Part shown: piece by piece, positions 5,107 to 62,572 of the stretch
Layout: each line of letters starts with the position of its first letter
How positions within the stretch are numbered: the stretch's first letter is position 1
Assembly: GCF_009495355.1 (NCBI RefSeq)
Contig: NZ_VZAD01000063.1
Location: 1-64,000 of the forward strand
Direction of reading: 5' to 3'
Length of the DNA stretch: 64,000 nt
From: Segatella copri
Lineage (GTDB): Bacteria; Bacteroidota; Bacteroidia; Bacteroidales; Bacteroidaceae
The notes under the pieces: generated by a model
What the model saw: only the letters and a program-made list of their open reading frames with translations
Told to the model about the DNA's origin: nothing
Database searches by the model: none
Made by a program: the position numbers and the translations under genes

Positions 5107-6312
5107 GTGAAACTGTCAGTAGTAATCGTCAACTATAACGTAAAGAATTATGTAGAGCAGTGTCTTCTTTCGCTCCATAAGGCGTTGGAGGGAATCGAAG
5201 CCGAGGTGTTGCTGGTGGACAATCATTCTGTCGACGGTTCGGTGGAGTATCTGCGCGAGCACTTCGACTGGGTTCGCATAGTGGCGAGCCGGCATAATCT
5301 GGGCTTTGCCCGAGCCAATAACCTCGCCATCCGCATGAGTCATGGCGAGTATGTGCTTTTGCTCAATCCCGACACCATCGTGGCAGAGCCCACACTGCGT
5401 GAGGCTTTGGCGTGGATGGATGGCCATGCAGATACCGGTTCCTTGGGTGTTCGCATGCTGAATGCCTGTGGCGAGTCGGCAAGAGAGAGCCGTCGTGGAG
5501 TTCCTACGCCGATGGTGGCATTCTGGAAAATGATAGGACTCTGCGAAAGAATGCCCGCACATCATCGCTTCGGACATTATTATATGGGTTATCTCGACTG
5601 GAACACACCGGCAGCCATCGAGGTGGTGAGTGGAGCTTTCTGCATGCTGCGGCGCGAGGCGCTCGACAAGGTGGGACTCCTCGACGAGGATTTCTTTATG
5701 TATGGCGAGGATATCGACCTGTCTTATCGTGTCCTCAAGGGCGGCTATCGCAACTATTATCTGCCATCGCTCATCCTTCACTACAAGGGCGAGAGCACGC
5801 AGAAGTCCAGTTTCCGTTATGTCCATGTGTTCTATGAGGCGATGCTCATCTTCTTCCGTAAGCACAATTCGGGCATGTCGCTGCTGCTCACAGTGCCCAT
5901 CAGCGCTGCCATATATGCGCGTGCCAGCGTGGCTGCTTTCGGCATGCTGCTCTCCAAGTTGCGCAAGAGCTTGGGCTTCACGCCCCGTCGCGAGGCTTCG
6001 CCCCGTTATCTCTTCTTGGGCAGTCAGCAGATGCTCGACGACTGTCGTTCCCTCAGTATGGAGAATGGACTCGATGCCCAGTTCGTCCTGGCAGATGCAC
6101 AGACTATGCCCGATGGACACCTGTCGGTTTCTGTTCAGGCGATGTTGCAGGGTATGGGCAAGTCGGTGGTCAATATCGTCTACGATGCCGATTCCTACGA
6201 CTATCAGCACATCTTCGGTCTCTTCATGCAGCAACCGCAGCGCCAGTGGAGGATAGGCACCTATCATGCCGCTACGCACAAGATAGTGACCGACCGTGAT
6301 GTGATAAGCTGA
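5107..6312 (+). CDS. Family 2 glycosyltransferase (rhamnosyl-like)
   Basis: A protein of 401 residues starting at GTG 5107, three bases after the previous stop. It begins with the GT-A pattern SVVIVNYNV, followed by LLVDNHSVDGS, NLGFARANN and the DxD-like NPD at about 87-89. EDIDLSYRV supplies the usual ED catalytic region. This arrangement matches WbbL-type family 2 enzymes that build cell-surface polysaccharides at the cytoplasmic face. The C-terminal third, after a hydrophobic stretch, is less typical and looks like a Rossmann-like nucleotide-binding extension (YLFLGSQQML). The sugar is unknown. Confidence 0.88.
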   Translation: MKLSVVIVNYNVKNYVEQCLLSLHKALEGIEAEVLLVDNHSVDGSVEYLREHFDWVRIVASRHNLGFARANNLAIRMSHGEYVLLLNPDTIVAEPTLREALAWMDGHADTGSLGVRMLNACGESARESRRGVPTPMVAFWKMIGLCERMPAHHRFGHYYMGYLDWNTPAAIEVVSGAFCMLRREALDKVGLLDEDFFMYGEDIDLSYRVLKGGYRNYYLPSLILHYKGESTQKSSFRYVHVFYEAMLIFFRKHNSGMSLLLTVPISAAIYARASVAAFGMLLSKLRKSLGFTPRREASPRYLFLGSQQMLDDCRSLSMENGLDAQFVLADAQTMPDGHLSVSVQAMLQGMGKSVVNIVYDADSYDYQHIFGLFMQQPQRQWRIGTYHAATHKIVTDRDVIS

Positions 6313-52514: not shown

Positions 52515-55500
52515 ATGGAACTGCCTAAGGTAATAAATAATATTTCTGAACGATTGATAGACGATTTGAGAGACAAGTTGTCTAAAGGCTCTCGTGTGTC
52601 AATTGCAGCAGCCTCCTTCTCTATTTATGCTTTTGAGGTATTAAAGGAAGAACTGGAGAATGTGGAAGAATTGCGTTTTATTTTCACCTCACCTACATTT
52701 ATCAAAGACAAGGTGAAAAAGGAGAAACGTGAGTTCTTTATCCCGAAACTCAACCGTGAACGCAACCTTTATGGCTCCGACTTCGAAATCAAACTCCGTA
52801 ACAAACTGGAACAGAAAGCCATCGCCAAGGAATGCGCAGACTGGATCAGACGTAAGGTAAAATTCAAGTCTATCGCTTCTCAGGAACCGATGAGCGGTTT
52901 CCTCTATATCAATGGCGAACCCCCACATACATATACACCTTTCAATGAGTTCACTACCACAGAATTGGGATGCGAGCGGGGTAATAGCGTTTATTCCATG
53001 ATCAATGTCATGCCATCACCCATTGCTGAGCAATATCTGAACGTATTCAATGAACAGTGGAAGAATGGCGATAAGTTTGAAGATGTTACTGCCAAGGTGC
53101 TGGAATACATAGAAACCGTTTATCAGGAAAATTCACCCGAGTTTATCTACTTCATTACGCTATATAATATTTTCAGCGAGTTTCTCGATGATATCAACGA
53201 GGATGTTCTTCCTAACGAGAAGACCGGCTTTCGGGAGAGTGTAATTTGGAAAAAACTTTATAATTTCCAAAAGGATGCAGCCCTGGCTATCATCAATAAA
53301 CTCGAAAAATACAATGGTTGCATCCTTGCCGATTCGGTGGGTCTGGGTAAAACCTTCACGGCGCTGAGCGTCATCAAGTATTACGAAAACCGCAATAAGT
53401 CGGTTCTCGTATTATGCCCTAAGAAGCTCTATGACAACTGGAGTACCTTCAAGACTAATTACAAAAACAATCCTCTTGCCGCCGACCGCCTTCGCTATGA
53501 TATCCTGTTCCACAGCGATTTAAGCCGAGATAGAGGTATGTCAAACGGAATTGATCTTGAAAGAATCAACTGGGGTAACTACGACCTGATAGTCATAGAC
53601 GAAAGCCACAATTTCCGCAATGGCGGTAATGTGGATGACGAGGATGATGAGGCTGACAACCTGGATATATTGGATGATGGTAAGAAGAAGAAGGAAAACC
53701 GCTATCAGCGACTGATGAACAAGGTGATTAGAGCAGGAATCAAGACAAAAGTCCTGATGCTGAGTGCCACTCCAGTCAACAACCGTTTCAACGACCTGAA
53801 GAACCAGTTGCAGCTGGCATACGAAGGTCATGCTGAGCAAATCAACGAGGTTCTTGACATCGACCGCAGCATAGATGATGTGTTCCGCTCTGCACAGTTG
53901 GCATACAACCGATGGACCAAGTTGCAGCCCAAAGAGCGCACCACGCAACGCCTGCTTGAAGAACTGAACTTCGATTTCTTTGAATTGCTGGATGCGGTTA
54001 CCATCGCCCGAAGCCGAAGCCACATCGTGAAATACTACGATACGAAGGATATCGGTAAGTTCCCTACCAGATTGGCTCCTATATCCCGCCGTCCAAAGTT
54101 GACGGATTTGAGCGATAGCATCTCTTTCAGCGAGATTGCTGAACAGCTGAACAGGCTGAATCTGAGCATCTATACGCCGTCACTCTATATCTTTGATAGC
54201 GTGAAGGAGGATTATGAAATCAATATGGAAGGCTCGGGTATTTCTATCGACGGACGAGAGAAGGGTCTCCGCAAGCTGATGGCCACCAACCTGCTCAAAC
54301 GTCTGGAGAGCAGCGTCAACTCCTTCCGTCTTACCTTGCAGCGCATCCAGGAATATATAGACGAAACGCTGAATATCATTGATAGCAACGGGCGCAGCGG
54401 TTCTGTGGATGTTACCGAGTTTACGGATGATTTAGATAGCGCAGATAGCGATAACGACCCATTTGTGGGCAGAAATTCCAAAATCAACCTCCGGGATATT
54501 GATGTGATTCGCTGGTCACGTGATCTTCGCAGCGACCAGGAGAATCTTGCCCTGCTTCAGATGATGCTCCAGGATATTTCTCCCGAGCACGACTCCAAGC
54601 TGCAGATGCTCATCGAAGATTTGAAGCACAAGTTTGAGCATCCCATCAATCCGGGCAACAAGAAGGTGATTATCTTTACAGCCTTTGCTGATACCGCCAA
54701 CTATCTTTACGACCAGCTGGCGGCACGCATCAAGGCGGATTGTGGGTTGAATGTGGCGCTTATCACGGGTTCTACGGATGGCAAATGCACCATACCGAAG
54801 TTCCCGATGAGTTTCAATAATGTGCTGACCTATTTCTCGCCCGTATCGAAAGACCGGGCTGCTCTCTTCCCGAATGCCACCGAGGAGATTGATGTGCTGA
54901 TTGCCACCGACTGCATTTCCGAGGGTCAGAACCTGCAGGATTGTGATTTCCTCATCAACTATGATATCCATTGGAATCCTGTCCGCATCATCCAGCGCTT
55001 CGGCCGTGTGGACCGTATCGGCAGCAGAAACGATGTCATCCAGTTGGTTAACTACTGGCCAGATATGGAGCTGGACCAGTATATCGAACTGAAAGGTCGT
55101 GTAGAGAGCCGTATGAAGGCCACCGTCCTCACCAGTACGGGCGACGACAACCTATTGTCGCAGAACGAGAAGGGTGACCTGGAATACCGTAAGAACCAGC
55201 TCAAGAAGCTTCAGGAAGAAGTGATAGACATAGAGGATATGGATACAGGTATCAACATCATGGATTTGGGACTGAATGAATTCCGCCTCGACCTGCTGGC
55301 ATACGTCAAGGAAAATCCGAATGTAGAACACTCGCCGTTCGGCATGAATGCGGTGGTGGCAAGTTCGAAGCATGCTAAGCCGGGCGTTATCTTCATCCTG
55401 AAGAATAGAAACAGGAATATCAATATAGACCGTAAGAACTTGCTGCATCCGTTCTATATGGTGTATCTGGGCGAAGACGGCTCCGTCATCTGCGACCATC

Positions 55501-55778
55501 TGCAGCCTAAGAAACTGCTCGATGTGATGCGCCACGTTTGCCGAGGCAAGAGCCAGCCGGATAAGGAGTTGTGCGCCATCATCAACCGGGAAACGGCTGA
55601 CGGCCGACAGATGAGCCATTATAGTGATATGTTGGCGAAGGCGGTTGACAGCATTATTTCTGTCAAGGAAGAGTCGGATATCGACAGCCTGTTCTCCATG
55701 GGCGAGACGAGTGCCTTGCTGGGAGATGCCAAGGGGCTGGACGACTTCGAGTTAATAACATTCTTAATTATCAGATAG
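52515..55778 (+). CDS. SNF2-like helicase with degenerate PLD-like N-terminus
   Basis: A protein of 1087 residues. About 1-170 resembles a phospholipase-D-like domain (AAASFSIYAFEVLKEEL; FLYINGE...FTTTELG), but the HxK pair that would make it an active nuclease is not visible. Walker A ADSVGLGKTFTAL lies near residues 270-280, DESHNFRN near 361, LMLSATPVNN next, and GRVDRIGSRND near 829 ends the motor. This SNF2/RapA-like motor moves along double-stranded DNA. Two bases separate it from DUF4391. I could not find a matching named defence family; DISARM DrmD is a distant comparison. Confidence 0.85.
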   Translation: MELPKVINNISERLIDDLRDKLSKGSRVSIAAASFSIYAFEVLKEELENVEELRFIFTSPTFIKDKVKKEKREFFIPKLNRERNLYGSDFEIKLRNKLEQKAIAKECADWIRRKVKFKSIASQEPMSGFLYINGEPPHTYTPFNEFTTTELGCERGNSVYSMINVMPSPIAEQYLNVFNEQWKNGDKFEDVTAKVLEYIETVYQENSPEFIYFITLYNIFSEFLDDINEDVLPNEKTGFRESVIWKKLYNFQKDAALAIINKLEKYNGCILADSVGLGKTFTALSVIKYYENRNKSVLVLCPKKLYDNWSTFKTNYKNNPLAADRLRYDILFHSDLSRDRGMSNGIDLERINWGNYDLIVIDESHNFRNGGNVDDEDDEADNLDILDDGKKKKENRYQRLMNKVIRAGIKTKVLMLSATPVNNRFNDLKNQLQLAYEGHAEQINEVLDIDRSIDDVFRSAQLAYNRWTKLQPKERTTQRLLEELNFDFFELLDAVTIARSRSHIVKYYDTKDIGKFPTRLAPISRRPKLTDLSDSISFSEIAEQLNRLNLSIYTPSLYIFDSVKEDYEINMEGSGISIDGREKGLRKLMATNLLKRLESSVNSFRLTLQRIQEYIDETLNIIDSNGRSGSVDVTEFTDDLDSADSDNDPFVGRNSKINLRDIDVIRWSRDLRSDQENLALLQMMLQDISPEHDSKLQMLIEDLKHKFEHPINPGNKKVIIFTAFADTANYLYDQLAARIKADCGLNVALITGSTDGKCTIPKFPMSFNNVLTYFSPVSKDRAALFPNATEEIDVLIATDCISEGQNLQDCDFLINYDIHWNPVRIIQRFGRVDRIGSRNDVIQLVNYWPDMELDQYIELKGRVESRMKATVLTSTGDDNLLSQNEKGDLEYRKNQLKKLQEEVIDIEDMDTGINIMDLGLNEFRLDLLAYVKENPNVEHSPFGMNAVVASSKHAKPGVIFILKNRNRNINIDRKNLLHPFYMVYLGEDGSVICDHLQPKKLLDVMRHVCRGKSQPDKELCAIINRETADGRQMSHYSDMLAKAVDSIISVKEESDIDSLFSMGETSALLGDAKGLDDFELITFLIIR

Positions 55779-55780
55779 AT

Positions 55781-56473
55781 ATGATAGATTTACATTATCC
55801 TCCAACCACGTTTGTAAGCAAGCCTGTTCCCAAGAACGCTTTCTACAGGCATCTGGAAGTGAATGCGAAGATGAAGCAGCACTTCGTAGATGATGTGGTG
55901 GCTATCAAGTGGCTTTATAAGTTGGCTCCTTCCACCCTCAATGTGGCAGATGGCAAGGAGGTTCACGAGATTGTGGTCTTTTCTGCGCAACTGAAGTCGC
56001 AGGATTGTCCGGATGATGTCTTCCTCTTCATCGATAGGAACATGCCTCGCCACGTGGTGTTTATCCTGGAATATGAGGGGCAGTATAAGCTGTTGCTCAA
56101 CTATAAGGAATGGCTGGATGCCACGGCAGGAACCTTCAGGATAGTGAAGTCTTTCGCTTCGGAATGGCTCCGTGAGGCAGATTTATCTTTGCCTATCCAG
56201 GGACTTACGATGGATGCCATCTATGAAAATATGGCAGGCGTGATTTCCGGCTATGGCACGAGCCGTAGCGAGGAAACTAAGCGCATGGTGGAGCTGGATT
56301 CCTTGATACAGAAGGGCTGGAAAGAGATTGCAGCCTTGCAGAAGCGGGTTAGAACCGAAAAGCAGTTTAACCGGCAGCTGGAACTGAACAACGAGGCTCG
56401 GGCGTTGAAGAAGAAGGTTGCTGAGTGGGAAAAAGAAATGGATGTTTTTAAAAAAGGAGAATATTATGGCTGA
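55781..56473 (+). CDS. DUF4391 protein
   Basis: A protein of 230 residues with the DUF4391 pattern (PVPKNAFYRH, VDDVVAIKWLYKLAPSTLNVADG, HVVFILEYEGQYKLLLNYKEW). The second half is mostly coiled coil (about 165-225, KRMVELDSLIQKGWKEIAALQKR onward). Known neighbours of this family are SNF2-like helicases in restriction islands; the biochemical role is unknown. It is two bases after the helicase and overlaps the nuclease gene by eight bases, so it is likely a partner of the helicase. Confidence 0.83.
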   Translation: MIDLHYPPTTFVSKPVPKNAFYRHLEVNAKMKQHFVDDVVAIKWLYKLAPSTLNVADGKEVHEIVVFSAQLKSQDCPDDVFLFIDRNMPRHVVFILEYEGQYKLLLNYKEWLDATAGTFRIVKSFASEWLREADLSLPIQGLTMDAIYENMAGVISGYGTSRSEETKRMVELDSLIQKGWKEIAALQKRVRTEKQFNRQLELNNEARALKKKVAEWEKEMDVFKKGEYYG

Positions 56474-57509
56474 TTTAAAGAATGATAGTGAAGTCCTAAA
56501 CGATATTCGCAAAATAATAGAGCAGGGGAGACATCAAGCCTATGCTGCTGCGGGACAAGCAGCTATAGCCACTTATTGGGGTATTGGCAGGCGAATAGTA
56601 GAAGAGGAACAGCATGGTGATGAACGTGCTAAATATGGTACACATTTGATTACAGAACTTGCAGCAAAGTTGATACCTATATTTGGAAACAACTATAGTA
56701 AACGCAACCTTCAGCATTATCGCAAATTCTACATTTTATTTCCTGATTATTCAAAAGTGTACGAGTTCGTACACAATTTGAATTGGACACATATTAGGCG
56801 ACTGTTGTCTGTGGTAAATCCGGAAGCACGAATGTGGTATCTAAAAAATGCCTCTGAAGAGATGTGGAGTACGACAACTCTCGATCGTAATATTTCGTCT
56901 CAATACTTCGAGCGTCGTCTGGCTGCACAACGCGCAAATCCAGATATGAAAATGACCGAAGCTGTTGCTCCTTATAATGATAGTGATCCTTTGGAATACA
57001 TAAAAAATCCAATGATTGCTGAATTTATGGGATTCAGGAAAGATACGAAGTTCGATGAATCACAGTTAGAACAGGCTTTAATAGACAACCTACAACAGTT
57101 TATTTTAGAGCTTGGAAGAGGCTTCGCTTTTGTTGACCGTCAGAAGCATATAAAGACCGAAACTGGTGACTATTATATCGACCTTGTCTTCTATAACTTC
57201 CGTATTAAACGTTTTGTTTTGTTTGAACTCAAGACACACACGCTGACTCATCAGGATGTAGGACAATTGGATATGTATGTTCGTATGTACGATGACCTTG
57301 TTAAGGGGGAAGACGATAATCCTACAATAGGTATTTTGCTTTGTGCTGAAACCGATAAAACTATAGCAAAGTATTCTGTATTGCATGAAAGTGAGCAGCT
57401 ATTTGCTGCTAAATATATGGCTTTTATGCCTACAGAAGAGGAGTTGCAATGCGAAATAGAAAAGCAAAAGCGTTTCTTTTTGTCACAACATGGAAATAAT
57501 GAAGAATAA
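56466..57509 (+). CDS. YhcG/DUF1016-type PD-(D/E)XK nuclease
   Basis: A protein of 347 residues from the ATG at 56466; the longer frame begins inside DUF4391. An N-terminal DUF1016_N part (IATYWGIGRRIVEEEQHGDERAKYG, SKRNLQHYRKFYILFP) precedes the nuclease core, with Asp in YYIDLVFYN (about 238) and the ELK of VLFELKT (about 253-255). Base composition is more AT-rich than the helicase, DUF4391 and Res genes. YhcG proteins are common accessory nucleases near restriction systems. It probably joined this operon by transfer. Confidence 0.88.
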   Translation: MADLKNDSEVLNDIRKIIEQGRHQAYAAAGQAAIATYWGIGRRIVEEEQHGDERAKYGTHLITELAAKLIPIFGNNYSKRNLQHYRKFYILFPDYSKVYEFVHNLNWTHIRRLLSVVNPEARMWYLKNASEEMWSTTTLDRNISSQYFERRLAAQRANPDMKMTEAVAPYNDSDPLEYIKNPMIAEFMGFRKDTKFDESQLEQALIDNLQQFILELGRGFAFVDRQKHIKTETGDYYIDLVFYNFRIKRFVLFELKTHTLTHQDVGQLDMYVRMYDDLVKGEDDNPTIGILLCAETDKTIAKYSVLHESEQLFAAKYMAFMPTEEELQCEIEKQKRFFLSQHGNNEE

Positions 57510-57528: not shown

Positions 57529-59481
57529 ATGGATAGACCAAATAGAATGAAATTGCAGTCGGCAGATGGAGTGCAGCTGAATCTGGATGCGCTTTATCAG
57601 ATTGCGCCTTCGTGCTTTACGGAGGTAGCCGACCCTGATTCGGGGGGGGGGGTAAAACGTGTAGTTAATTTTGACGTACTTCGCCAGCTTCTTGGTGACA
57701 ACGCAGTGGAAGATGCTCCTGAGGCATACGAGTTCAACTGGGTTGGCAAGCAGGCAGCTCGTGCCGAAGTTTTGAAGCCTATTAAGAAGACGCTGCGTCC
57801 TGTAAAGGAGGATAGTGTGGATTGGGACAACACACAAAACCTTTATATTGAGGGTGATAACCTCGAAGTGCTTAAACTTCTCCAGAAGTCTTATCTGGGT
57901 AAGGTAAAGATGATTTATATTGATCCGCCTTACAATACGGGTAATGATTTTGTTTATCATGATGATTTTGCGATGTCTGCTGATGAGTATGCTGAGGCTT
58001 CGGGAGCAGTAGATGAGTTGGGCAATAAATATATCAAGAACATGGATTCGAATGGACGTTTTCATTCGGATTGGTGCTCTATGATTTATTCGAGATTGAT
58101 GGTGGCGAGAACGCTGTTGACAGAGGATGGTGTGATTTTTATCTCGATTGATGATAATGAGGTTGAGAATCTGAGAAAGATTTGCGATGAAGTTTTAGGA
58201 GAAAATAATTTTGTGACAAACATAGTATGGCAATCTACAGCTGGTTCAAATACTGGAACTGATATTGTAACTGTTACTGAAAATATATTAGTTTATACAA
58301 AAAATAGAAACGTTTTTAAATTCAACGGAAAATTGAGTGATGAGAACTCTTATACGCTTTCTGATGAATATGAGAATATACGTGGAAAATACTCCTTAGA
58401 TAAGATGGATAGGCGAAGAGTTGGTAGTCACTATTCTGAGGCTTTGAATTATCCAATTACCATGCCTGATGGTAGCTTACGTTATCCTGGAGGTTATTCT
58501 GAAAAATCAGCAGAGGGTTGGAATTATCTTTGGAGCAAGACAAAAGTCGATTGGGGATTAAAGAATGGTTTTATTGTATTTAAGCAAAATAATGGAGTTT
58601 GGAATGTATATAATAAACGTTATAGCAAGGTAGACAATGAAGGAAATGTAATAGAAAGATCCACACCTTATCGTAACTTGATAACATCAGATATTTGTAA
58701 TACTGCACAAGGTACGGCAGAGATAAGAAATCTTTTCGGAAATAGGTTCTTTGATTTTCCTAAGCCAACAAAAATAATAAACATATTGTTAAATACAGTT
58801 GTAAGAAAAGACAAAGATTCCATCATCCTCGACTTCTTCTCCGGCTCCGCCACCACCGCTCATGCTGTGATGCAGCTCAATGCCGAAGATGGAGGCAACC
58901 GTAAATTCATCATGGTTCAGCTTCCTGAAGAAACACCGGAAGATAGCGAGGCAAGAAAGGCTGGCTATAATACCATCCCAGACATCGCCAAAGAAAGAAT
59001 AAGAAGAGCCGGCAAGAAAATCAAGGAGGAATCTCCTTTGACCACTGCCGACCTCGATACCGGTTTCCGTGTCTTTCGTCTCGACGAAGGCAATTACGAA
59101 GATGTAAATCGTACACCAAAGGAATTCAAGCAAGACCAGCTCGATCTGTTCCTGAATAATATCAAGGCCGACCGAAACGACCTCGACCTGCTCTTTGGAT
59201 GCATGCTCGACTGGGGCGTTCAGCTCTCTCTGCCTATGACCCAGGAGGTGGTGGATGGCAAGACCATCTATACCGTGAACGACGGAGACCTGGTGGCCTG
59301 TTTCGCCGAGAACGTATCAGAAGACGTAGTAAAAGCCATGGCAGAAAAGATGCCTTTGCGTGTCATTTTCCGTGACAGTTGCTTTGCCCAGGATGCCGAC
59401 AAGATTAATATCTACGAGACCTTCAAGCAGAAGCTGGATTGGAGCGACCAGGAAGTAGTGAAGAATATTAGAGTGATTTAA
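57529..59481 (+). CDS. Type III DNA methyltransferase (Mod), probably phase-variable
   Basis: A beta-class N6-adenine methyltransferase of 650 residues. Catalytic motif IV DPPYNTG starts at residue 132, and AdoMet motif I LDFFSGSATTAHAV at 435, the type III order with the target-recognition segment between them. The region 58195-58815 is more AT-rich than both ends. A tract of 11 G at 57642-57652 encodes part of SGGGV (38-42). With 10 G the frame ends at TAA at once; with 12 G it ends at TAA about nine codons later. As given, the gene is ON. Confidence 0.92.
   Translation: MDRPNRMKLQSADGVQLNLDALYQIAPSCFTEVADPDSGGGVKRVVNFDVLRQLLGDNAVEDAPEAYEFNWVGKQAARAEVLKPIKKTLRPVKEDSVDWDNTQNLYIEGDNLEVLKLLQKSYLGKVKMIYIDPPYNTGNDFVYHDDFAMSADEYAEASGAVDELGNKYIKNMDSNGRFHSDWCSMIYSRLMVARTLLTEDGVIFISIDDNEVENLRKICDEVLGENNFVTNIVWQSTAGSNTGTDIVTVTENILVYTKNRNVFKFNGKLSDENSYTLSDEYENIRGKYSLDKMDRRRVGSHYSEALNYPITMPDGSLRYPGGYSEKSAEGWNYLWSKTKVDWGLKNGFIVFKQNNGVWNVYNKRYSKVDNEGNVIERSTPYRNLITSDICNTAQGTAEIRNLFGNRFFDFPKPTKIINILLNTVVRKDKDSIILDFFSGSATTAHAVMQLNAEDGGNRKFIMVQLPEETPEDSEARKAGYNTIPDIAKERIRRAGKKIKEESPLTTADLDTGFRVFRLDEGNYEDVNRTPKEFKQDQLDLFLNNIKADRNDLDLLFGCMLDWGVQLSLPMTQEVVDGKTIYTVNDGDLVACFAENVSEDVVKAMAEKMPLRVIFRDSCFAQDADKINIYETFKQKLDWSDQEVVKNIRVI
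57642..57652 (+). repeat. G11 tract in mod
   Basis: Eleven consecutive G, codons 38-42 of mod (TCG GGG GGG GGG GTA). A hotspot for slipped-strand mispairing. Confidence 0.95.
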
Positions 59482-59485
59482 GCCT

Positions 59486-62400
59486 ATGAAACTCAGATAT
59501 AAACATCAACGCTTCCAAACCGAAGCGGCGCTGGCTGTGGCTAATGCCTTTACTGGTCAGCCCAAAAGCGACGGACAGAGCGACCATATCGTGGACCAAG
59601 GAGTTAATCAAGGCCTCTTTGTGGTAAAGGGCTTTGGCAACAAGAATGTTATCCTCGCTCCGGAAGCCGTCTGCGAAAATGTAAGAGCCATACAGACAGA
59701 ACAGGGTCTGAAACCTGTAGAACAGCTGCAGCGACTGCAAGGCGTAGGTACCGCCCTCACCATCGAAATGGAAACGGGTACGGGTAAAACCTATACCTAC
59801 ATAAAGACCATGTATGAACTGAATGCCCGCTATGGCTGGACCAAGTTTGTGGTGGTGCCAAGCATCGCCATCCGAGAAGGCGTATTGAAGAGCTTTGAGA
59901 GCATGCAGGAACATTTTGCCCAGGAATACGGCAAGCGCACGCAATACTTCGTGTATAACTCCAAGCAGCTCAGTAAGATAGATGCCTTTGCCAGCGATGC
60001 CGGCATGCACGTGATGATTATCAATACCCAGGCATTCAACGCATCTATGGATGAGGAGAAGTCAACCGATAAGATGGAGAAAGGAAAATTGAAGAAAGCT
60101 GATAAGGCAGCCCGCATTATCTTCGAACGACGTGATGAGTTCGGCTCCCGCCGTCCTATCGACGTGCTGGCACAGACCCATCCTATCATGATTATCGATG
60201 AACCTCAGTCGGTATTGGGTGTGGACAAGAAAAACAAGACCCGTAAGGGTATTGCCATGTTCAAGCCGCTCTTTACCCTTCTGTATAGCGCCACCCACCG
60301 CAAGGGTGATATATATAATATGGTGTATAAGCTGGATGCCATCAATGCCTACAACCAGAAACTGGTGAAGAAGATTGAAGTGAAGGGCATCAGACAGGTA
60401 GGCAGTACCGCAACCAACGGCTACGTCTATCTGGAGGAAATCGTCATCGGCAAGGGCAATCCGCAGGCTCGCATCAGCTTCGACATCAAGACGCAGACCG
60501 GAACAAAACAGGTAAGCCGACTCGTGGATGAACGCTTCAACCTGAAGGAACTGAGTGGGGGACTTGCCGAGTATGACAACAACTTTATCGTAGAACGCAT
60601 AGACGGCAGGCTGGGAATCGTCCGCTTCCTCAACGGCTTGACTCTGCATGAAGGCGATGCCGTGGGCAGTGTGAACGAAGACTATATCCGTCGTATTCAG
60701 ATTCGTGAAACCATCCGCACCCATCTGGAGCGTGAGCGCCAGCTATATGGACAGAATATCAAGGTGCTCAGTCTCTTCTTCATCGATCATGTGGATAGCT
60801 ACAAACTCTATGAAGGCGAGGATAGCAAGGGAAAGTTTGCCAAGATGTTTGAGGAAGAATATAACCGAGTGCTTTCAGAAATGCTGCCATCATTTACGGA
60901 TGAAGCCTATCTGCGCTATCTTTCAGATCCTCGCAATGCGGCATCCAAGGTGCACAAGGGATACTTCTCCATGGATAAGAAAAGCAAGATGGTGGAATCG
61001 AAGGAAAGGCAGGGCGAGAACGAAGAGCGTGCCTTCGACCTGATTATGAAGGATAAGGAGCGTCTGCTTTCGCTCAGCGAGCCTGTCCGCTTCATCTTTT
61101 CGCATTCCGCTTTGAAGGAAGGTTGGGACAATCCTAATGTGTTCCAGATCTGCACCTTGAAGAACTCGGATAATGAGACCAAGAAACGCCAGGAAGTGGG
61201 ACGAGGAATGCGCCTTTGTGTGAATCAGAAGGGTGAACGCCAGGATGCGGATGTGTTAGGCGATCATGTCTTTGACACCAACATTCTGACCGTGATTGCC
61301 AGTGAGAGCTATGAAGATTTTGCCAAGAAGCTACAGACGGAAATGGCAGAAGCCTGTGCCGACCGACCAACCGTTATCACTCCAAACCTCTTTGAGGATA
61401 AGACTTATACGATGGAAGATGGAACCAATGGCAAGTTGGACATTAATCAGGCAAGAGCTATCTATAATGAACTCATTCGCCAAGATTATGTAAATGACGA
61501 AGGAACGTTGACGGCTCGTTACTTTGATGATAAGCGCAATGGTTCTCTCGATTTCGGCAAGTCGAATGATATGAAGGACAGCATCATTGCTATCCTCGAT
61601 ACAGTCTTCACCCGATCTATAGTGAAGCCAGAGGATGGTAGAAAGCCGAAACTGGCAAAATTCCAAAAGGATAACTTTGCCAAGAAGGAGTTTCAGGAGC
61701 TATGGAAGCGTATCAACCGCCGTACCTACTATCAGGTAAACTTCGATACTTCTGACCTTGTCAAGAAGTCTGTCAAGGCCGTTGACGACCTTTTGAAAGT
61801 TACGGAAATACGTATTGTGGTAGAAGGCGGTTCGATGGAGAATATCCATGATAAGGAATCGCTTGAAGCAGGTGTTGCCATGACTCAGGGAAATATTCGT
61901 ACCATCCATTTAACTGAGGCTGTGGGTAAGGGCGTGACATACGACCTGATCGGTCAGCTGGTAAGTGCAACAGGATTGACAAGAAAGACTATCGTGGAAA
62001 TTTTGAAAGGTATCAAACCAGCTACATTCAGTATGTTCAAGATGAATCCTGAGGAATTTATCATCAAGACTGCACGAATCATCAACGACTGCAAGGCTCT
62101 TGCTGTTATCCAGTGCATCAAGTATGAGAAGTTGAACGATGAATTCTCTACCGATATATTTACCGAGAACGCCCTCCGTGGCAAGTTGGGTGTTAATGCC
62201 ATAGAGTCTGTCAAGTCGCTCTACGACCTTGTGGTGCTTGACAGTATGGGTACAGAGAAAGACTTTGCTGAGTCGTTGGAGCATGAAGATGACGTGGTGG
62301 TTTATACCAAACTGCCTCGTGGCTTCTACATCAATACACCTATGGGTAAGTACAATCCCGACTGGGCTGTGGCTTTCCGTGAAGGCAGCGTAAAGCACGT

Positions 62401-62572
62401 CTATTTCATTGCTGAAACAAAGGGAACGGATGATTTGCCTTCCGATCTGCGTGGCACGGAGAACAGTAAGATAGAGTGTGCCCGTAAGCATTTTGAGGCT
62501 ATCAGCGAAAAGGATGTTATTTTTGATGTGGTCAAGAATTACCAGAAATTGTATGATGTAGTAACAAAATAA
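59486..62572 (+). CDS. Type III restriction endonuclease (Res)
   Basis: A protein of 1028 residues, four bases after mod. Walker A METGTGKTYTYIK lies at residues 95-107, DEPQS near 238 is motif II, and LKEGWDNPNVFQICTLK and RQEVGRGMRL close the superfamily 2 motor. The C-terminal PD-(D/E)XK nuclease has NPDWAV (about 957) and AETKG (about 976). Motor and nuclease look intact, so with Mod it should form a working type III enzyme, which cuts DNA carrying two inversely placed unmodified sites. Confidence 0.93.
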   Translation: MKLRYKHQRFQTEAALAVANAFTGQPKSDGQSDHIVDQGVNQGLFVVKGFGNKNVILAPEAVCENVRAIQTEQGLKPVEQLQRLQGVGTALTIEMETGTGKTYTYIKTMYELNARYGWTKFVVVPSIAIREGVLKSFESMQEHFAQEYGKRTQYFVYNSKQLSKIDAFASDAGMHVMIINTQAFNASMDEEKSTDKMEKGKLKKADKAARIIFERRDEFGSRRPIDVLAQTHPIMIIDEPQSVLGVDKKNKTRKGIAMFKPLFTLLYSATHRKGDIYNMVYKLDAINAYNQKLVKKIEVKGIRQVGSTATNGYVYLEEIVIGKGNPQARISFDIKTQTGTKQVSRLVDERFNLKELSGGLAEYDNNFIVERIDGRLGIVRFLNGLTLHEGDAVGSVNEDYIRRIQIRETIRTHLERERQLYGQNIKVLSLFFIDHVDSYKLYEGEDSKGKFAKMFEEEYNRVLSEMLPSFTDEAYLRYLSDPRNAASKVHKGYFSMDKKSKMVESKERQGENEERAFDLIMKDKERLLSLSEPVRFIFSHSALKEGWDNPNVFQICTLKNSDNETKKRQEVGRGMRLCVNQKGERQDADVLGDHVFDTNILTVIASESYEDFAKKLQTEMAEACADRPTVITPNLFEDKTYTMEDGTNGKLDINQARAIYNELIRQDYVNDEGTLTARYFDDKRNGSLDFGKSNDMKDSIIAILDTVFTRSIVKPEDGRKPKLAKFQKDNFAKKEFQELWKRINRRTYYQVNFDTSDLVKKSVKAVDDLLKVTEIRIVVEGGSMENIHDKESLEAGVAMTQGNIRTIHLTEAVGKGVTYDLIGQLVSATGLTRKTIVEILKGIKPATFSMFKMNPEEFIIKTARIINDCKALAVIQCIKYEKLNDEFSTDIFTENALRGKLGVNAIESVKSLYDLVVLDSMGTEKDFAESLEHEDDVVVYTKLPRGFYINTPMGKYNPDWAVAFREGSVKHVYFIAETKGTDDLPSDLRGTENSKIECARKHFEAISEKDVIFDVVKNYQKLYDVVTK

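Follow-up and report, generated by a model that had tools for sequence, protein, structure and literature searches.

A run of eleven guanines inside the mod gene of a Segatella/Prevotella type III restriction-modification system is very probably a contingency switch that works by slipped-strand mispairing, as judged from the sequence and from its comparison with related alleles. The 64,000-nucleotide stretch of DNA analysed here (the window) contains the following elements of the gene:

57529..59481, + strand: mod, type III DNA methyltransferase, 650 aa, intact (ON), assigned by PADLOC, Pfam and EcoP15I homology
57642..57652, + strand: G11 homopolymer, codons 38-42 of mod, coding for SGGGV in a predicted beta-hairpin turn, the ON length
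57653..57655, + strand: latent TAA stop, read if the tract is one G short, giving a product of 41 aa
57666..57668, + strand: latent TAA stop, read if the tract is one G longer, giving a product of 46 aa
58213..58808, + strand: approximate extent of the target recognition domain, which is exchanged from allele to allele

The tract starts at codon 38 in the context TTC-G11-TAAAACG. Out of five tract lengths tried in silico (G9-G13), the 650-aa protein was obtained from G11 only, with G9, G10, G12, and G13 giving products of 45, 41, 46, and 42 aa, respectively. The repeat is thus located inside the mod frame, and the other lengths truncate the product. These results confirm several claims of the first-pass annotation, which had placed eleven Gs at 57642-57652 within codons 38-42 and predicted that one G fewer would bring a TAA directly against the tract (G10), that one G more would bring a TAA within nine codons (G12), and that any single slip would turn the enzyme off. 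The window was also said to hold an ON allele, and the open reading frame is indeed intact.

No other G or C run of at least seven is present in the 64 kb window, and those of at least six are limited to two G6. A first-order Markov model predicts about 0.005 runs of eleven or more Gs for the window, but this is a crude chance model, and the comparative evidence presented below is the stronger support for the tract. When both strands of the source genome (3.14 Mb, 100 contigs) were searched for nine Gs, one other place was found at C44:6849-6857 (L044, L075), in the context TTAACAATTTA-G9-AGGGAAAAAATG. This second run looks intergenic by eye and may adjoin a promoter.

The identification of the product as a type III methyltransferase, already made in the first-pass annotation, was borne out by matches to the PADLOC MTase_III profile (4.7e-214 over residues 5-635) and to Pfam N6_N4_Mtase (above cut-off), as well as by homology to the EcoP15I Mod (PDB 4zcf) over residues 51-607 (7.1e-68, phmmer). 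In type III Mod proteins, the DPPY motif precedes an AdoMet-binding motif of the FxGxG type, and the target domain lies between the two. The same order is found here: D132-Y135 and D435, F437, and G439 are invariant in an alignment of 37 sequences, and the middle of the protein has diverged. Both the sliding identity and the DNA alignment of the window with the L033 allele, which breaks off at 58212 and picks up at 58809, reveal that the target domain is allelic while the rest of mod is constant. In the structure model of Mod (mean pLDDT 79.9; about 70-78 near the tract), the tract site is the turn that joins strands 30-34 and 42-46. The source genome also contains, at C3:62334-63605 (L002, L003), a second methyltransferase relative, a distant one with an open frame of 818 aa.

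Relatives of mod were identified in 37/398 genomes of the genus (E 1e-100) and in 54/393 genomes of the order (E 1e-60). Using the first 342 bases of mod as query, hits were obtained in 36/399 family genomes and in 16/199 relatives of G772, the genome that carries L033. Across these partly overlapping genome sets and one collection scan, four alleles (one ON and three OFF), compared between different species-level genomes, carry a tract at the codon-38 site. The allele of S. copri iA622 (L033, identical to L046) has G7, an upstream frame of 40 aa, and 611 open codons after the tract; that of S. copri Indica (L038, identical to L006) also has G7 and an upstream frame of 40 aa, followed by 630 open codons. 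The third OFF allele (L036), from a Paludibacteraceae metagenome-assembled genome, has G8, an upstream frame of 43 aa, and 604 open codons after the tract, with the proviso that draft assemblies can misstate the length of a homopolymer. In 3/3 cases the upstream frame stops at a TAA that abuts the tract. Tract length therefore differs between related alleles and sets them ON (G11) or OFF (G7, G7, and G8). The two S. copri OFF alleles, both G7, may go back to a single event, and a tract of seven Gs is short for slippage to be fast. The proposal that the tract makes mod phase-variable is well supported by these related alleles, which have other tract lengths and are OFF at exactly the same point. 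Similarly, the description of the host as Prevotella-like holds at the genus level, the host belonging to the same genus as the two S. copri genomes with OFF alleles.

The closest tract-free relatives (L004, identical to L040, as well as L034, L035, L037, L039, and L047-L049) read DPKTGK or DPKTGE in frame at the tract site. The DNA of L035 at this position, ACGGGGGAGGTAAAG, is one base change short of a G8 run, and suggests how such a tract can begin. A scan of IMG/VR for mod gave four pattern matches, none of them a relative, and a scan of the same collection for the tract context gave no match. A plasmid search with mod returned 801 records, all less than 60% identical, the best 20 of the 801 being at most 46.8% identical.

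The mod gene is part of a wider operon, of which the other members are:

59486..62572, + strand: res, type III restriction subunit, 1028 aa (REase_III, 2.3e-279, PADLOC; ResIII and RE_endonuc, Pfam)
56463..57509, + strand: DUF1016/YhcG-like PD-(D/E)XK nuclease (PADLOC PDC-S02), whose place and presence vary between relatives
55781..56473, + strand: DUF4391 protein
52515..55778, + strand: HKD+SNF2 helicase-like protein (PADLOC C3a139)

The res start is located four bases past the mod stop, and the GTGKT, DEPQ, and PD...E.K motifs are all present in Res, so that mod adjoins a restriction subunit with both helicase and endonuclease parts, as in type III systems. The helicase, DUF4391, mod, and res genes are found together in L035 (where res is cut by the contig end), L036, L037, L039, and L040. 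Among the window and its relatives, the slot beside mod is a cassette site of variable content. The DUF1016 gene precedes mod in the window and in L036 (4955-5956), the two being 50% identical, and is located between mod and res in L034 (2220-3221). It is absent in L033, L037, L039, and L040, and internally deleted in L038 (3829-4253), in which the first 36 codons are all that is left of the helicase and the last 29 codons all that is left of DUF4391. In L035, the slot (5308-5868) contains two short frames in place of DUF1016, which look like a toxin-antitoxin pair when their peptides are read.

Type III Res subunits such as those of EcoP1 and EcoP15I need to be in complex with Mod to find their site, so an OFF Mod would also disarm Res. 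One switch would then toggle methylation and restriction together, and no unprotected DNA would be left for cutting. We propose that slippage occurs at a high rate within a clone and that ON lengths are spaced by three bases (such as G8 and G11), each step adding or removing one glycine in a tolerant beta-hairpin turn. In either wrong frame, translation ends no more than nine codons on, at the TAA abutting the tract or at the one just past it. The main benefit would be a population in which cells with this barrier to phages and plasmids coexist with cells that lack it. Regulation of host genes via methylation is possible, and is ranked second.

Because Res is full-length with its helicase and nuclease motifs, and the three OFF relatives also have a Res of full length, phase-variable restriction that gates phages and DNA uptake would be at least as likely as a phasevarion, in which the same switch is selected for a genome-wide change of host expression through methylation. 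We regard a phasevarion as a possible but somewhat unlikely outcome. Type III mods switch in this manner in Haemophilus, Neisseria, Helicobacter, and Moraxella, according to excerpts of PMC7394358 and PMC13076061, and the combination of a constant frame with interchangeable target domains is reminiscent of the modS and modM alleles described in abstracts. However, with an intact Res in the window and at three OFF loci, restriction alone could explain the selection, and the further defence-like genes of the operon also fit selection for restriction.

To place the contingency switch within the mod family, G runs of at least seven were recorded in 115 mod loci, duplicates included and the window left out. 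Runs at codon 38-41 are those of L033, L038, and L036. Further runs are found at codon 121 of L154 (G7), at codon 479 of L066 (G9) and L141 (G7), at codon 507 of L138 (G8), and at codon 564 of L115 (G7), the last of these being in frame. By our own alignment to the window and the structure model, the other runs map to loops before strands 126-131 and 513-519. Counting the window, TAAA directly follows the run in 7/9 cases, and with such an arrangement one wrong frame stops at once. The majority (7/10) of the distinct frameshifted mods break at a G run or within ~20 bases of one, the exceptions being L032, L056, and L145, and a G run of at least seven is present in 1/97 distinct intact relatives (Fisher 3.6e-8, with the window left out and related mods treated as independent). 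For this count, L006/L038, L033/L046, and L054/L154 were merged as duplicates, and L017 was left out, as it consists of two neighbouring mods with the second piece matching the same mod part again; loci whose frame is cut or short (L026, L129, and L140, for example) are outside the 97 intact relatives.

The mod bases of the fetched loci, without the window, contain eight G runs of at least seven and no such C runs in 212.6 kb, compared with two G/C runs in 253 kb of flanks, both at L115. The Markov expectation for runs of seven (1.84 G and 1.07 C per window) exceeds what was observed. Since this model would not call eight runs in 212 kb many, the flanks and the frame breaks were used as controls. 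Beside the run-bearing mods outside the codon-38 site, Res is intact for L154 and L115, open over the part covered for L066 (394 residues) and L138 (526 residues), and contains stops for L141.

In a tree built from residues 43-200 (105 rows, bootstrap not settled), the three S. copri-type alleles make up a clade of their own (100/92), and L036 clusters with L039, which has no tract (100/76). L154 is on its own branch of the wider clade, L066 and L141 are interspersed with tract-free rows in a single clade, and L138 belongs to a different one. The codon-38 site may hence have gained a run twice, or lost it. Frameshifting runs are found at two further places in other Bacteroidales mods, and for this reason the poly-G trait probably arose several times in this group. 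A broader proposal, which we advance tentatively, is that Bacteroidales type III mods are a recurrent substrate for poly-G switches in glycine-tolerant loops (codons ~38, ~121, and ~479-507) that would toggle a restriction barrier with exchangeable specificity in Prevotella/Segatella, as a class of defence bet-hedging distinct in role from the phasevarions of pathogens.

The OFF alleles bear the marks of genes that were off when sampled, rather than of old decay. The dN/dS values (Nei-Gojobori, own script) for the N and C segments after the tract are 0.09/0.12 for the window compared with L033, 0.16/0.23 with L038, and 0.08/0.05 with L036, for which the synonymous distance approaches saturation. 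For L033 compared with L038, both of them OFF alleles of S. copri, they are 0.22/0.30. Res is stop-free and full-length in L033, L038, and L036. It is these low ratios and the intact Res, together with the open downstream codons and the swapped target domain, that argue against old decay. That the tract is instead a chance mutational hot spot, with the OFF alleles being ordinary pseudogenes on their way to loss, appears improbable. Such an origin would suit the 3/10 frameshifted mods that have no such run and the stops in Res beside the OFF mod of G129, but it is difficult to reconcile with low dN/dS over 604-630 open codons past the tract in three OFF alleles, with an intact Res at the three OFF alleles that have the tract at this site, and with runs that occur at several mod loops and are rare in the flanks. 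Plain gene loss looks to occur as well, as the tract-bearing OFF mod of G129 (L141/L177) adjoins a Res with stops.

It is also unlikely that an internal start, or slippage of the RNA polymerase along the Gs, gives an active Mod at every tract length. In-frame internal starts are present at codons 60 (GTG), 82 (TTG), 97 (GTG), and 114 (GTG), and also at codon 128. In the window, AAGGAGG precedes the GTG of codon 97, and AAGGAGGATAGTGTG precedes the catalytic motifs, in frame, in both S. copri OFF alleles as well as in the window. However, purifying selection is strong at codons 10-32 and 46-95, with w of 0.00-0.09 between the window and six intact tract-free relatives (synonymous distances partly saturated), and N18, P27, E32, L51, E65, W71, and K74, all invariant in the 37-sequence alignment, would be lost by a start at codon 97. 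Moreover, the codon at this start is GTA in L034, and neither this locus nor L036 or L037 has the AAGGAGG. Shine-Dalgarno sites are little used in Bacteroidota. The first-pass annotation had raised the case of a downstream start that restores the enzyme: an in-frame GTG with an AAGGAGG does exist at codon 97, but the conserved N-terminal residues would be lost, and given this loss and the absence of AAGGAGG in three relatives, restoration of Mod activity from this codon is unlikely. Finally, although the source is a draft genome of 100 contigs and homopolymers are error-prone, a true length other than G11 in the sampled strain is very improbable, since the frame is open with G11 and the existence of related alleles with G7 or G8 suggests a real variable run.

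Other poly-G runs were noted in the genus. The sequence GGGGGGGGTAAA is found in 164/398 genus genomes, with more than 10 copies in some of them; the first 100 rows of the listing contain 117 copies, compared with 26 of the reversed control. Runs of G8 followed by TAAA were considered as support for a genus phasome and dropped, as in most of the 30 loci (L076-L105) the run is not flanked by a long open frame on each side. Long open frames do adjoin the TAAA-followed runs of L083 (G9), L087 (G9), L093 (G11), and L099 (G8); the frame changes at the run in L083 and L087, while L093 and L099 are in frame. By peptide reading, L083, L087, and L093 resemble surface-polysaccharide or acyltransferase genes, and L099 a radical SAM gene. 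These four are possible further poly-G switches in the genus. In another genome of the same genus, a G16 run followed by TAAAATGG (L092) is surrounded by short open frames only.

Segatella copri is a dominant human gut bacterium that is hard to transform. A switchable restriction barrier in its close relatives could account for phage sensitivity and DNA uptake that differ from strain to strain and within a strain. If the barrier is switchable, genetic tools should be built in the OFF phase, and the methylome of one colony would not be descriptive of the strain. Simple-repeat type III switching would also be extended to a major lineage of commensals, in which it shows signs of having arisen repeatedly.

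Among the matches listed in our literature search, no paper describes a simple-repeat type III mod in Prevotella/Segatella; a 2018 survey of REBASE type III systems, which may list Prevotella, was not covered. In the available part of PMC10333322, on methyltransferases of the Bacteroides fragilis group, neither "homopolymer" nor "Prevotella" was found. According to excerpts of PMC7394358, 17.4% of the type III mods in REBASE, as cited there, carry such repeats, and phase-variable type III mods are also found in commensal and environmental organisms.

The system described here is similar to modA (Haemophilus, Neisseria), modH (Helicobacter pylori), modM (Moraxella), and modS (Streptococcus suis) in having a simple repeat inside a type III mod frame. 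These phasevarions are ON in one frame of three and combine conserved ends with an exchangeable target domain, and the same is found here. Unlike them, the present system has a Bacteroidota host, an intact Res, and helicase and DUF4391 genes in the operon, and its wider mod family has runs at several loops, probably of several origins. We know of no phase-variation repeat in EcoP15I. The order helicase-DUF4391-mod-res is shared with plasmid pP97_c of Phaeobacter porticola, which has one extra gene between mod and res, but that plasmid is alphaproteobacterial and its mod is 44.1% identical.

Type I switching of the S. pneumoniae kind changes specificity by hsdS rearrangement. In the available part of PMC5690328, phase-variable type I systems are reported for five Porphyromonas gingivalis strains and for each of the three sequenced strains of Prevotella intermedia, and are likened to the S. 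pneumoniae system. They are examples of phase-variable restriction-modification in the same bacterial order, but here it is a type III mod that would be switched off by a poly-G frameshift. The poly-G mod switch would thus join an established class of phase-variable type III mods, its repeated origin being possibly a new pattern.
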